From Flavobacteriaceae bacterium (GTDB taxonomy: Bacteria > Bacteroidota > Bacteroidia > Flavobacteriales > Flavobacteriaceae): DNA of 10,248 bases. Shown here piece by piece: positions 4,015-10,248 of this stretch. The position numbers and the translations under genes are program-made. The notes beneath the pieces were generated by a model that was not told the origin of the DNA, did no database searches, and saw only the letters and a list, made by a program, of their open reading frames with translations. The stretch spans positions 1 through 10,248 of the forward strand of contig JAESTN010000282.1 in assembly GCA_016763595.1 (NCBI GenBank), read 5' to 3'. Position 1 is the stretch's first letter, and every line of letters starts with the position of its first letter.

Positions 4015-4722
4015 CTATTTATTTTTTTGAGTTAATTTTTTAATTTCATCGGTAATCTCTTTAATTTGATCTAGTGCGTTATCACTTTTAGTATCAATTT
4101 CCTTTCCTCTTTGAATCGCCTCTTTTACACCTTCTGATAATTGTAATAATTTTGTGGTAACCAAACTATCAATTCCTTTTAGACCAATCATAGATAAAGC
4201 TTCTCGTTGGGTTGCTTTTACCTTTCTTATAGAACTTAAATATGCAGTTAAAGTTGAGTTGGCATACATGGTGTTTTGGTAGGCTTGATCTATTTTTAAT
4301 AGAAGTTCTGTTTCTTGTGTTGTGATTGGATTCATTAATTCATCCGTTTTCTTCTTGATTTGTCTATTGGCCGCGCTTAAAAAATCTTGCATGTCATTAG
4401 TTGCTTTTTCTGTTGTGGCAATCGTATTTTTTTGAGCAGCATCATTCAGTGCTTTAAAAATTGATTCCTGACCATTTTTATAGGAGCTCAACTCTTTTTT
4501 AAGTACAAAATTAATCACATATGGAGCATATACATCTTTGATGAAAATATCAATATTGTCTTTAATTTTTTGATAATATATAATAACCACATTTCTATGT
4601 GAAGTATGTAATCCTTTTAAATCAATTCCCACTGCTTTAGAAAGTTCTACAGTTTCTTTTGGTATTGAAATACAGCTAGATATTAGAAAGGCAATTAGTA
4701 AAAGTTGAATTGTTTTTTTCAT
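4015..4722 (-). CDS. Putative lipoprotein with coiled-coil character, second gene of patatin operon
   Basis: The 235-residue product begins with a lipoprotein signal (MKKTIQLLLIAFLISSC), with the lipobox ISSC placing the acylated cysteine at residue 17. It is therefore probably anchored in a membrane and faces the periplasm. The acidic residues after Cys seen in some Bacteroidota surface-export signals are absent (ISIPKET follows), which mildly favours a periplasmic face. The mature part is nearly all helix-forming, rich in Lys, Glu, Gln and Ala. It has heptad-like stretches around residues 100-155 and at the C-terminus (about 190-235), suggesting coiled coils or a helical bundle. No enzymatic motif is visible. 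It lies 10 bp after the phospholipase gene and 2 bp before the small protein gene. I do not recognise the family. Confidence 0.8.
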   Translation of the reverse strand: MKKTIQLLLIAFLISSCISIPKETVELSKAVGIDLKGLHTSHRNVVIIYYQKIKDNIDIFIKDVYAPYVINFVLKKELSSYKNGQESIFKALNDAAQKNTIATTEKATNDMQDFLSAANRQIKKKTDELMNPITTQETELLLKIDQAYQNTMYANSTLTAYLSSIRKVKATQREALSMIGLKGIDSLVTTKLLQLSEGVKEAIQRGKEIDTKSDNALDQIKEITDEIKKLTQKNK

Positions 4723-4732
4723 GTAATCAAAA

Positions 4733-5797
4733 TTAATTGTTTTCTATAAGTTGTTGAATAAATTCATCTAATGAGTGTTCATTTTCTTTTTGAGATTGTG
4801 CATCTTTCAATGCTTCTCTCCCTGCTTTTTTCAAAGCTTCAACGTTTTCTGGAGAAGCATCTGCCATATCACTTGAATAGGTACGCTTATTTTTAGGGAC
4901 ATCAATTCTCTTATAATTGAATTTGTCTTTTTGGTTTAGCGTATCAAAAATATTTTTCATTTGGTAATCTACCGTGTCAATACTTCCGTCCATCATAATG
5001 TTAGGAATAGAAGTGGCCCAAGAAAGTATTCCCCAGTTAGAACTCTTATTTACAGTAGGTAAATCAAATTGCCCCCCCCCAGTTCCAATAGATAAAACAA
5101 GCATGTCTTTTGCGGCGGGGAAAGAAATATCATCAAAATCTGTTGCTCTAGCCTCAGAATAGGCGCACATTGTAGGGTTGTTTGCAAAAACACCACCATC
5201 TATATTAATCATTTGCTTTTGTGTGGCTAAATTTTCAATAAATGCAGGTGGAAAATAGGTTGGTGCAGCAGAGGTAGAACGGAGTACATCTTTAACATAG
5301 AATTCTCTGTCTTTATCCATTGGTTCCCTACTACTAAAGAAAAAAGAATTTTTACTTTGTAGATTATACGTAGTAATGATGCAGGGTTTTAATAATTCTT
5401 TTAGGTGAAGATGTTGAAACTCTCTATGTAATATTCTTTCTAATTCCTTTGGACTGTATTGTGAAGCATTAAATAATTGTCGCAACCCAAACCAACCAAA
5501 TTTTTTAGAGGCATTAAAAATTTTATAGCCATCTTTTGAATAAAAAGCTAAAGCTTCTGAAGCTTTAAATTTTGAAATTGGATCCTCTTTAAATAGTGTT
5601 TTACTAGGGGTTAAATAAAAAGCACCTAATATGCCTCCTGTACTTGTGCCAGCAACTAAATCAAAATAATCTGCAATTCTAGCATTTGGATTTTTGGTGA
5701 TTTCAATAATTTTATTTTCTACATATTCTAAAACAGTAGCCGGAATGATTCCTCTCATTCCACCTCCGTCTAAAGATAAGATTCTTACTTTTTTCAT
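4733..5797 (-). CDS. Patatin-like phospholipase
   Basis: Patatin-family lipid acyl hydrolases use a Ser-Asp dyad to cleave fatty acids from phospholipids. In the 354-residue protein the oxyanion-hole loop DGGGMRG is at residues 10-16, the nucleophile elbow GTSTG at 50-54 (Ser52), and the catalytic Asp in DGGVFANNP at 200-208 (Asp200). The usual core strand LSIGTG is at 235-240. All active-site elements are intact. There is no signal peptide, so the enzyme is probably cytoplasmic. The residues after 250 form a C-terminal extension ending in a charged helix. It is the first gene of a three-gene unit with a lipoprotein and a small protein. Codons 240-242 are GGG GGG GGG, forming a G9 run (5072-5080) in an AT-rich gene. 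Patatins act as effectors in CBASS, but no nucleotidyltransferase partner is present here. The family is sure; the biological role is unknown. Confidence 0.93.
   Translation of the reverse strand: MKKVRILSLDGGGMRGIIPATVLEYVENKIIEITKNPNARIADYFDLVAGTSTGGILGAFYLTPSKTLFKEDPISKFKASEALAFYSKDGYKIFNASKKFGWFGLRQLFNASQYSPKELERILHREFQHLHLKELLKPCIITTYNLQSKNSFFFSSREPMDKDREFYVKDVLRSTSAAPTYFPPAFIENLATQKQMINIDGGVFANNPTMCAYSEARATDFDDISFPAAKDMLVLSIGTGGGQFDLPTVNKSSNWGILSWATSIPNIMMDGSIDTVDYQMKNIFDTLNQKDKFNYKRIDVPKNKRTYSSDMADASPENVEALKKAGREALKDAQSQKENEHSLDEFIQQLIENN
5072..5080 (-). repeat. Poly-G (G9) tract inside the patatin coding sequence
   Basis: Nine consecutive C on the plus strand encode Gly240-Gly242 as GGG GGG GGG. 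Such runs are prone to slipped-strand mispairing. With ten G the frame reads G-G-G-A-I and stops at TGA (244 residues). With eight G it runs a few more residues to TAA (248 residues). Both would delete about 110 C-terminal residues while keeping the Ser52/Asp200 dyad. Confidence 0.85.
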
Positions 5798-9087: not shown

Positions 9088-9621
9088 ATGAATGTATTTG
9101 ATATTGTAATACTGGTTTTCCTTTTGTATGGATTTATAAAAGGAATTATGAAAGGTCTGTTTGTAGAAATAGCCTCTTTAGTAGCTTTAATTGGCGGAAT
9201 TTGGGGAGCCATTCATTTCTCCTATTTTGTTGGGGATTTTTTAGAAGAAAGTGTTACTTGGAGCGAGAAAAAGATCTCGCTAGTTGCCTTTGCAATTACC
9301 TTTGTTATTATAATTGTGGTTGTTGGAATGTTGGGTAAATTTTTAACCAAACTAGCAGATTTAGCAGCATTGGGATTGGTTAATAAAATATTAGGCGGAA
9401 TTTTTGGGTTTCTAAAAATAGGACTGGTATTAAGTATTGTATTTATCTTTTTTCATAGGTTAAATGCAACCATCTCTTTTGTAGATGATAAAACCTTAGA
9501 AGAATCTGTGTTGTACAATACGGTTAAAAGTATTGCGCCAGCAATATTTCCATCTATTATTAATACCGATGGTGATACTGGTAAAGATGTGATAGATAGC
9601 ATTATAGATGAAGTAAACTAA
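9088..9621 (+). CDS. cvpA: CvpA family membrane protein
   Basis: CvpA proteins are inner-membrane proteins named for colicin V production. The family is linked to envelope homeostasis, with no agreed biochemical activity. This 177-residue copy has four hydrophobic segments at about 3-20, 26-47, 64-85 and 103-124, the family pattern. Small residues and glycines cluster in the first two (LLYGFIKGIMKG, LIGGIWGA). A polar C-terminal tail of about 50 residues follows, ending DVIDSIIDEVN. Length is typical. The start at 9088 (MNVFDIVILV) runs straight into the first membrane segment. It is monocistronic by appearance: a probable promoter lies at 9031-9062 and a weak terminator after the stop. Confidence 0.92.
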   Translation: MNVFDIVILVFLLYGFIKGIMKGLFVEIASLVALIGGIWGAIHFSYFVGDFLEESVTWSEKKISLVAFAITFVIIIVVVGMLGKFLTKLADLAALGLVNKILGGIFGFLKIGLVLSIVFIFFHRLNATISFVDDKTLEESVLYNTVKSIAPAIFPSIINTDGDTGKDVIDSIIDEVN

Positions 9622-9673: not shown

Positions 9674-9681
9674 GTATAAAT

Positions 9682-9721
9682 AAAAAAGACGATTAAAAAT
9701 CTAGGGGGTAGTTTTTAATCG
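9682..9721 (-). terminator. Rho-independent terminator of the candidate small RNA
   Basis: Arms 9690-9699 and 9712-9721 form a perfect 10-bp stem, which CTA/TAG can extend by three pairs inside, leaving a five-nucleotide loop that reads CCCCC on the minus strand. A TCTTTTTT tract follows on the minus strand only (9689-9682). On the plus strand no T run follows, so it is directional and does not serve cvpA. Confidence 0.68.
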
Positions 9722-9752
9722 CCTCATGTTAACAAAGAATTGTTGTGGGGGA
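9682..9752 (-). ncRNA. Candidate small RNA with two CCCCC motifs
   Basis: A free-standing transcription unit is suggested: a promoter at 9787-9757 on the minus strand, no usable gene downstream, and an intrinsic terminator about 60 nt later, predicting an RNA of about 70 nt. Its 5' end would be single-stranded and C-rich (ACTCCCCCACA). A 5-bp stem-loop follows (AACAA/TTGTT, 9731-9744). Then comes the terminator hairpin, whose loop carries a second CCCCC. An eight-codon reading frame, MRRLKTTP, begins within it and stops in the terminator loop, but no downstream gene would make it a leader peptide. No known RNA family is recognised. Promoter and terminator support is good; function is inference. 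Confidence 0.5.
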
Positions 9753-9756
9753 GTAA

Positions 9757-9787
9757 CAAATTTACAGCAGAAAAGCATACTACACAA
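9757..9787 (-). promoter_or_regulatory. Promoter of the candidate small RNA
   Basis: On the minus strand, TTG (9787-9785), a 20-bp spacer and TAAATTTG (9764-9757) give the best full Bacteroidota -33/-7 match in the window. Predicted transcription start is near 9752. Confidence 0.58.
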
Positions 9788-9789
9788 TA

Positions 9790-9852
9790 CCCATTTATGG
9801 GGTTTTTTACCTCACGGTTTTCCGTGAGAAGTGTCTCCCTGAAAACCGTGAG
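9790..9852. promoter_or_regulatory. Inverted-repeat cluster upstream of the small RNA promoter
   Basis: The heptamer CCGTGAG occurs three times: inverted at 9811-9817, direct at 9822-9828 and direct at 9846-9852. The first two make CTCACGG-TTTT-CCGTGAG. The block CTCACGGTTTTC (9811-9822) can instead pair with GAAAACCGTGAG (9841-9852), so two hairpins exclude each other. A further inverted repeat, CCCAT-TT-ATGGG (9790-9801), touches the -33 element. The position immediately upstream of a promoter suggests binding sites for a regulator. A plus-strand role of the last repeat, which is followed by TTTTTT (9803-9808), as a terminator is an alternative. Confidence 0.5.
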
Positions 9853-9881
9853 AAACTTTTTGTAATGGAAAATTAGCGTAT

Positions 9882-9912
9882 AAAAAAAGCGTGCTATCAG
9901 CACGCTTTTTTA
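9882..9912 (-). terminator. Rho-independent terminator of the carbonic anhydrase gene
   Basis: AGCGTGCT (9888-9895) and AGCACGCT (9899-9906) form a perfect 8-bp GC-rich stem around a 3-nt loop, flanked by A7 and T6 runs that extend it. It lies about 20 bp after the stop on the minus strand. The symmetric flanks mean it could work in both directions. Confidence 0.85.
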
Positions 9913-9931: not shown

Positions 9932-10248
9932 TTAGTAGATAGAAACCTTTCCGTTAGCTAAGTGATAAACACCACCAACTATTTTAATTTCTCCATTGTC
10001 TTCCATTTCTTTTAGAACAGCACTTTTTTCTCTAATTCTGTCCATAGTTAACTGCACGTTGTTTTTGATCGTTTGATTTACAAACTCCGTATTAGAAGAA
10101 TCATGTGCGCCACTGATTTGAGATTCGGCAAGTGTAACAGCAGGCTGAATATTAGCTAACATTGCGGTAATATTTCCTAATTCTACATGATCACAAGCAG
10201 CTTTTACAGCGCCGCAACTTTCATGGCCCAAAACAAACACCAATTTAC
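9932..10248 (-). CDS. Beta-class carbonic anhydrase, C-terminal part (cut by window edge)
   Basis: Beta-carbonic anhydrases are zinc enzymes that interconvert CO2 and bicarbonate, usually in the cytoplasm. The visible part, about 105 residues, begins KLVFVLGHESCGAVKAA. That contains the His and second Cys zinc ligands of the family in the GHxxCGA motif. The first Cys ligand and the Asp-Arg pair lie upstream, outside the window. The following helical stretch (VNQTIKNNVQLTMDRIRE) and the C-terminal strand IVGGVYHLANGKVSIY are typical of the family's end. An internal GTG near 10243 is not the start, because the reading frame continues to the edge with conserved residues. A strong terminator follows. 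Confidence 0.93.
   Translation of the reverse strand, partial: KLVFVLGHESCGAVKAACDHVELGNITAMLANIQPAVTLAESQISGAHDSSNTEFVNQTIKNNVQLTMDRIREKSAVLKEMEDNGEIKIVGGVYHLANGKVSIY

Follow-up and report, generated by a model that had tools for sequence, protein, structure and literature searches.

Response regulators that drive several small RNA (sRNA) genes are an already known kind of circuit. In Pseudomonas, GacA, a response regulator of the NarL/FixJ kind, drives several Rsm sRNA genes via an upstream palindromic box, and the Rsm RNAs carry GGA motifs for RsmA and sequester this protein. In Vibrio, the response regulator LuxO, of the NtrC type, drives several sibling Qrr sRNAs from sigma-54 promoters, and in Listeria the regulator LisR is of the OmpR type. 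To our knowledge, few sRNAs of Flavobacteriia have been characterized. The multicopy sRNA LhrC1-5 of Listeria monocytogenes depends on the two-component system LisRK, and its UCCC motifs, located in loops including that of the terminator, are described as pairing with an mRNA in the part of the report available (PMC4132741). The nearest described sRNAs of the phylum in the open-licence literature, according to the accessible text of the two reports, are Rfp18 of Flavobacterium psychrophilum, a conserved flavobacterial sRNA affecting metalloprotease mRNAs (PMC9723704), and FopS of Bacteroides thetaiotaomicron, the regulator of which is given there as unknown and which together with GibS represents multicopy paralogous sRNAs that expose a single-stranded 5' seed and end in an intrinsic terminator (PMC11697453). 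In the same open-licence literature nothing was found on the C-rich sRNA family considered here, its operators or its regulator.

This article describes a locus in a 10,248-nt contig of a Flavobacteriaceae bacterium (JAESTN010000282.1; the whole stretch analysed is called the window), which, judged from sequence, looks like a small RNA gene of an apparently undescribed, multicopy, C-rich kind. It is read here as a short member of a family of C-rich sRNAs that an autoregulated response regulator would directly activate together with a few secreted-protein genes, the RNA likely pairing with G-rich mRNA, a reading to which we assign a probability of about 0.75. The gene family, the shared operators and the link to the regulator are supported by sequence comparison; transcription in vivo, activation over repression, control by phosphorylation and the pairing mechanism we infer. 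A two-component regulator probably turns the sRNA on, its DNA target having changed along with the promoters from species to species. What is new is the family itself, its C-rich character in Flavobacteriia and the concerted operator change.

Architecture of the sRNA locus

The original prediction was of a separate sRNA gene, furnished with a promoter, regulator sites and a terminator of its own, on the minus strand between the cvpA-like and carbonic anhydrase genes (Table 1), and the same architecture was found to recur beside different genes. The promoter layout TTG-20 bp-TAAATTTG is present where it had been described, with a spacing of exactly 20 nt; TAAATTTG is presumably the -7 element of the Bacteroidetes promoter type, and the 5' end of the RNA was placed, by inference, 5-7 nt past it. 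The CCCAT/ATGGG repeat that had been pointed out is the core operator CCCCATAAATGGGTATTG (9802-9785, minus strand), which overlaps the TTG (9787-9785) of the -33 element, and the three CCGTGAG half-sites, also present, are rather three good arms and one degenerate arm of two 18-bp palindromes. The predicted terminator was recovered as a hairpin (9725-9686) with a U-rich tail; its stem is not perfect, as had been claimed, because of a one-base bulge. A further terminator-like hairpin (9883-9911) lies between the sRNA unit and the upstream carbonic anhydrase gene, and therefore a mere 3' tail of a neighbouring mRNA is disfavoured. A simple scan of the window, made with a sigma-70 consensus other than the Bacteroidetes one, listed neither the sRNA terminator nor the sRNA promoter. 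Elsewhere in the window, outside the subject of this work, a patatin-like phospholipase gene (Pfam Patatin; 4015-5797, minus strand) adjoins a lipoprotein-like gene.

Table 1. Features of the sRNA locus and its neighbours in the window.
Feature	Position	Strand	Basis or remark
cvpA-like gene (Colicin_V domain)	9088..9621	+	neighbour, ends at 9621
U-rich tail of terminator	9685-9678	-	sequence
Predicted sRNA, about 75 nt	9678..9752	-	sequence, fold, alignment with 44 other members
Terminator hairpin	9686..9725	-	fold; stem kept across the family
Second CCCCC run, terminator loop, unpaired	9704..9708	-	sequence and fold
First CCCCC run, near 5' end, unpaired	9747..9751	-	sequence and fold
TAAATTTG, presumed -7 element	9757..9764	-	sequence
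Core operator CCCCATAAATGGGTATTG, palindrome CCCAT-AA-ATGGG	9785..9802	-	exact core search
Proximal 18-bp palindrome CTCACGG-TTTT-CCGTGAG (CTCACGGTTTTCCGTGAG, plus-strand reading)	9811..9828	.	sequence
Distal 18-bp palindrome CTCCCTG-AAAA-CCGTGAG (CTCCCTGAAAACCGTGAG, plus-strand reading), one arm degenerate	9835..9852	.	sequence
Terminator-like hairpin between carbonic anhydrase gene and sRNA promoter	9883..9911	.	simple scan
Carbonic anhydrase gene (Pro_CA)	9932..10246	-	neighbour, cut by window end

The fold predicted for the window RNA has two hairpins, a 5-bp hairpin alone preceding the terminator; its stability of -17.4 kcal/mol (z -6.39) was matched by none of 200 shuffles. Both CCCCC runs are single-stranded in this fold, in agreement with the original prediction, and reading the window RNA from its fold revealed no GGA motif.

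A family of predicted C-rich sRNAs in Polaribacter

The blastn comparison that had been suggested as a check hit the own genome at six more positions: a reverse self-match within the window, the remaining ones lying on contigs C348, C414, C39 and C391. Twelve of 59 genomes gave matches, counting the own one; those in two of the 12, from other genera, are weak. The copy on C348 has the same layout and, by reading, adjoins the prfA end. The records with the core operator and a genus-level search point to Polaribacter; conservation was detected within this genus alone, the search beyond it being a weak test of absence (see below). From Polaribacter 46 units were collected, corresponding to 45 distinct RNAs (type A). 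The distance between core and box is 20 nt in all 46 and the box reads exactly TAnnTTTG in 45. Most members are about 90-112 nt long and consist of a 5' hairpin, a C-run and a terminator AAGCGATTAA..TTAATCGCTTTT. Short forms occur in the window and in genome G032, the one other genome in which a copy was seen at the cvpA locus (L013, L057). Among the loci read, by far the commonest place is adjoining prfA (gene named by NCBIfam), with a GH31 glucosidase gene or another gene on the other flank. The sRNA genes stand alone or form tandem arrays, the longest with five copies (Polaribacter sp. Hel1_85, L050).

Enriched C-runs and compensatory stem changes were found across the family; the original prediction had named conserved CCCCC motifs and compensatory changes in the stems as support. 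Runs of four or more C occur in 38 of the 45 distinct RNAs (15.4 +/- 2.6 in dinucleotide shuffles), being found in the 5' part of 37 members and in the terminator part of 21, with 24 members lacking one in the terminator loop; no run of four or more G and no closed ORF of at least 20 codons was present in any of the 45. Across 28 long forms, 12 of 24 base pairs changed on both sides, a value that none of 500 shuffles attained and that fell to between 3 and 8 when the structure was slid along the alignment. RNAalifold applied to all 45 RNAs predicted the terminator stem only.

The exact core operator CCCCATAAATGGGTATTG is found in 17 of 97 genomes of the genus and, alone, in a few unrelated metagenome-assembled genomes (MAGs). 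Four of the latter from rumen and other Bacteroidales (L043, L044, L051, L054) carry it at the same 20-nt distance in front of an ORF (a FeoA-FeoB fusion in the case of L043 and L054); they were rejected as family members, the upstream palindromes being absent and the core preceding an ORF. A type-A covariance model (R2) matched 23 of the 97 genus genomes, some weak matches appearing false, among them one in G034 (L115) with no such promoter upstream by eye. Over 299 genomes of the bacterial family it gave two weak matches, neither with promoter or operators, which is a weak test of absence because R2 failed as well on the own genome, G020 and G032. At the gathering score no Rfam family was detected in the window or in nine relatives' loci, and the 19 entries of a permissive list, all below their cut-offs, were taken as chance (best JA02, 40 bits with a cut-off of 49, plus strand, 9792-9910).

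The response regulator and its operon

The same operators and promoter precede a response-regulator gene in the own genome (contig C414) and in many others. This gene, for a NarL/FixJ-type regulator, heads an operon that continues with genes for a lipoprotein and a TPR histidine kinase. The one regulator orthologue scanned (L053:2276-2935) matches Response_reg with 86 bits and GerE with 64.5 bits, above the cut-offs, and the kinase of that operon shows TPR, HisKA_3 and HATPase_c domains. The lipoprotein, in which no Pfam domain was detected, diverges fast (L053:3066-3728, L056:4305-4994, L045:2041-2730) and could be a signal sensor or an accessory component.

Regulator orthologues (E < 1e-60) are present in 76 of the 97 genus genomes and in 63 of the 69 good ones. 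In the 75 upstream regions read (G007 was left out at a contig end), the strict TTG-20-TAnnTTTG box occurs in 70 and is missing in 5. Palindromicity measured from the TTG in 72 of these promoters peaks at -56 (4.65 of 8 pairs), -34 (4.43) and -45 (4.31) over a background of 2.35, the peaks showing a 22-bp period; the proximal palindrome of the window corresponds to the -34 peak and the distal one to the -56 peak. Of the good genomes, 31 of 63 that have the regulator showed an sRNA of type A or of a second type B (see below), as against none of the 6 that lack it (p 0.023), the list of sRNA-bearing genomes having been assembled by hand; neither type was found in the other 32 with the regulator, and overall one or the other was seen in 36 of 97 genomes.

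Outside the genus, orthologues (E < 1e-50) occur in 13 of 147 genomes. In three other genera (L275, L277, L278) similar palindromes were noted by eye before the regulator gene, so that the operator may predate the detected sRNA family.

These features suggest a circuit in which the sensor histidine kinase would signal to the NarL/FixJ-type response regulator, which in turn would bind three sites: the two palindromes further upstream, spaced by 22-24 bp, and the one that overlaps the -33 element, its centre estimated to lie near -43. Activation is favoured over repression, since both the overlap of a site with the -33 element and the spacing by two turns fit an activator. The regulator would thereby activate its own operon, the sRNAs and a few other genes, namely those for the second C-rich sRNA, an XRE-type regulator, secreted proteases and lipoproteins. 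The sRNA transcript would end at the intrinsic terminator and expose two unpaired C-runs, which most likely pair with G-rich stretches of target mRNAs.

Operators change in concert with the regulator

The operator palindrome is strongly species-dependent, with CTCACGG-TTTT-CCGTGAG, CTCACTG-TTTT-CAGTGAG, ATCCCTGAATTCAGGGAT, CTCCCCATTTATGGGGAG and CTCCCCCTAAAGGGGGAG among the types observed and CTACGTATTTATACGTAG, CTAAGGGTTTTCCCTTAG and TTTGCGGTAAAACCGCA as further ones before regulator genes. The sRNA promoters of a genome mostly bear the operator type of its own regulator promoter. This was quantified in 30 genomes, with sRNA positions hand-chosen by a promoter accompanied by a hairpin, C-run or palindromes, independently of likeness to the regulator promoter (G032, with no regulator found, and G015 and G035, with no type-A position listed, were left out). 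Operator similarity averaged 16.86 of 18 within a genome versus 13.73 between genomes, a difference reached by 0 of 20000 permutations. Between genomes, regulator promoters are less alike (13.81) than the regulator and sRNA promoters of a single genome are. The own pairing was favoured in all 237 genome pairs (of 435) with clearly different regulator operators; the poorer fits to the rule are G016 (own 13, best other 17) and G011, G030 and G099 (own 15).

The variation of the operator is accompanied by that of the regulator. Across 29 genomes the recognition helix, which we take to be residues 185-193 from the position in the GerE fold, correlates with the operator (r 0.59); controlling for receiver-domain distance leaves a partial r of 0.57, which none of 5000 permutations reached. 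Phylogeny is not fully removed in this comparison, since the rest of the HTH domain reaches 0.51, almost the value of the helix, and the receiver domain 0.39 (partial 0.34). At the level of whole genomes, TCCCTGARYTCAGGGA was present in all 8 genomes selected for that type and in 0 of 4 others (reversed control solely in G026, 2 per strand), and TCACKGWWWWCMGTGA in 13 of 13 of its type and 0 of 5 others (reversed control solely in G099). Both patterns were drawn from those regulator promoters, therefore it is the further sites that count; in eight genomes recounted, the exact palindromes form three to nine clusters each.

The clearly different half-sites (CTCACGG, TCCCTGA, TCCCCAT, CCCCCT, TACGTA, AAGGG, TTGCGGT) raise a broader proposition, to which we would give even odds: that the DNA-binding specificity of an autoregulated response regulator was replaced repeatedly within one genus, with three to nine promoter loci per genome, tandem C-rich sRNA arrays included, switching in concert. 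If true, Polaribacter would hold a natural series of mutually insulated versions of one regulon of sRNA and secretion genes, the switching perhaps driven by strain competition or by mobile elements exploiting the old operator.

Other members of the predicted regulon

Among twenty stretches with operators, nearby genes include an XRE-type gene (HTH_3), a subtilase with a Por secretion tail, an M43-type metallopeptidase and, by eye, lipoprotein-like proteins and small ones that look secreted. On C39 of the own genome the module precedes a gene that starts like the metallopeptidase of L337; no Pfam match was obtained for this gene, which is cut by the contig end. In G072, the 245-290 nt leaders of four operator-driven genes (L333-L336) have closely similar starts, but the products, lipoproteins or small proteins that look secreted, differ, which gives the impression that a single promoter-leader cassette has spread.

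The second C-rich sRNA (type B) lies behind the same operators and before an ABC-F-like ATPase gene, as seen in the seven loci checked (L327, L328, L322, L329, L330, L302, L341); the piece of this gene scanned met no NCBIfam cut-off. These seven RNAs, unlike type A in sequence, have a terminator CCCAAG..CTTGGG and one or two runs of four or more C each, in six of them inside a long-looped hairpin. Their stems displayed no compensatory change among the seven sequences, which are too alike. A model of the type-B RNA body alone (R3) was run on the 97 genomes, and 30 matches were read: 7 training loci, 17 new ones below E 2e-5 and 6 weaker. Palindromes of the own regulator's type stand upstream of 16 of the 17 new matches (L360-L365, L368-L377, at least two of them, L373 and L364, agreeing moderately, with 15 and 16 of 18), the exception being L366 in G063. 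Own-type operators were thereby located in G009 (CTCCCCCTTTAGGGGGA) and G082, both devoid of an sRNA in the earlier test. Of the six weaker matches, L382 is operator-like, L383 doubtful and the rest without operators; at E 0.01, R3 matched 67 of 97 genomes, the weak matches read being mostly bare terminators.

Targets and alternative explanations

Pairing with G-rich targets, as originally proposed, gained no support from one pattern search: TAAATTTG-(6-36)-AGGGG-(2-30)-ATG gave 10 matches in 8 genomes versus 11 for the reversed control. Among the leaders of other regulon genes, GGGG was present in L318 alone, where the stretch runs into the ORF. An AGGGG at the start of the XRE-like gene of G020 (L015) was considered as a target and dropped because it is missing in L319 of G035.

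The lack of a G-rich target class in that search would suit an explanation in which the C-rich RNAs sequester an RNA-binding protein in the manner of Rsm and RsmA, their exposed C-runs being protein sites, with the genes and the regulator link unchanged. Two RNA types, dissimilar in sequence, sharing regulator control and exposed C-runs, as well as the tandem copies, speak in the same direction. We nonetheless consider sequestration rather unlikely, though worth keeping in view, as we know of no such RNA-binding protein here. Exposed motifs and many copies also suit mRNA pairing, as the available part of the LhrC report illustrates with its UCCC motifs (PMC4132741).

A different question is whether the regulator acts on these promoters at all, or whether another DNA-binding protein controls them and the regulator gene is merely a fellow target. 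This would accord with the many genomes that have the regulator gene and no detected sRNA; however, the recognition helix of the regulator still follows the operator once the receiver domain is taken into account, none of the 6 good genomes devoid of the regulator shows the sRNA, and the core site has a 7-2-7 layout, presumably that known for NarL, all of which make control by another protein improbable. Even less credible, to the point of being nearly dismissible, is that the unit represents a dispersed repeat element with no RNA function. Such an element might be expected to occur several times per genome and in tandem, as is seen here, and to show an additional copy such as the one at the cvpA locus, seen in no genome but the own one and G032; but many copies sit at one conserved place beside prfA, the promoter spacing is fixed, the stems covary and the same operators precede protein genes.

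Read as a regulator-activated family of C-rich sRNAs, the system makes a regulator-sRNA circuit accessible to testing in a marine genus that is abundant. In addition, the joint change of operator and recognition helix across species supplies many ready-made natural experiments on how a transcription factor can change its site with its regulon retained.

Comparison with known systems

With GacA-Rsm the proposed circuit shares a response regulator driving several sRNA genes via upstream palindromes, whereas the window RNA is C-rich and devoid of GGA, and the regulator would also drive its own operon and protein genes. The Qrr system differs in both promoter and regulator, which here are TTG-20-TAAATTTG and GerE-type, respectively. 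FopS and GibS are likewise multicopy Bacteroidota sRNAs with a 5' single-stranded segment and an intrinsic terminator, but the accessible description does not present their seed as a C-run; FopS is stated there to be deposited in Rfam, of which no family matched here, and the release scanned may or may not hold it (PMC11697453). Rfp18 is comparable in that proteases lie in the regulon predicted here; compared by description, its pairing region is predicted in a third stem-loop in the text available, while the window RNA consists of two hairpins (PMC9723704). The closest resemblance in exposed C-rich motifs and several copies is to LhrC, and it is one of design, not of descent: LhrC belongs to another phylum, relation as assessed through Rfam gave no match for the window or nine relatives' loci, and the regulator here is of the GerE type.
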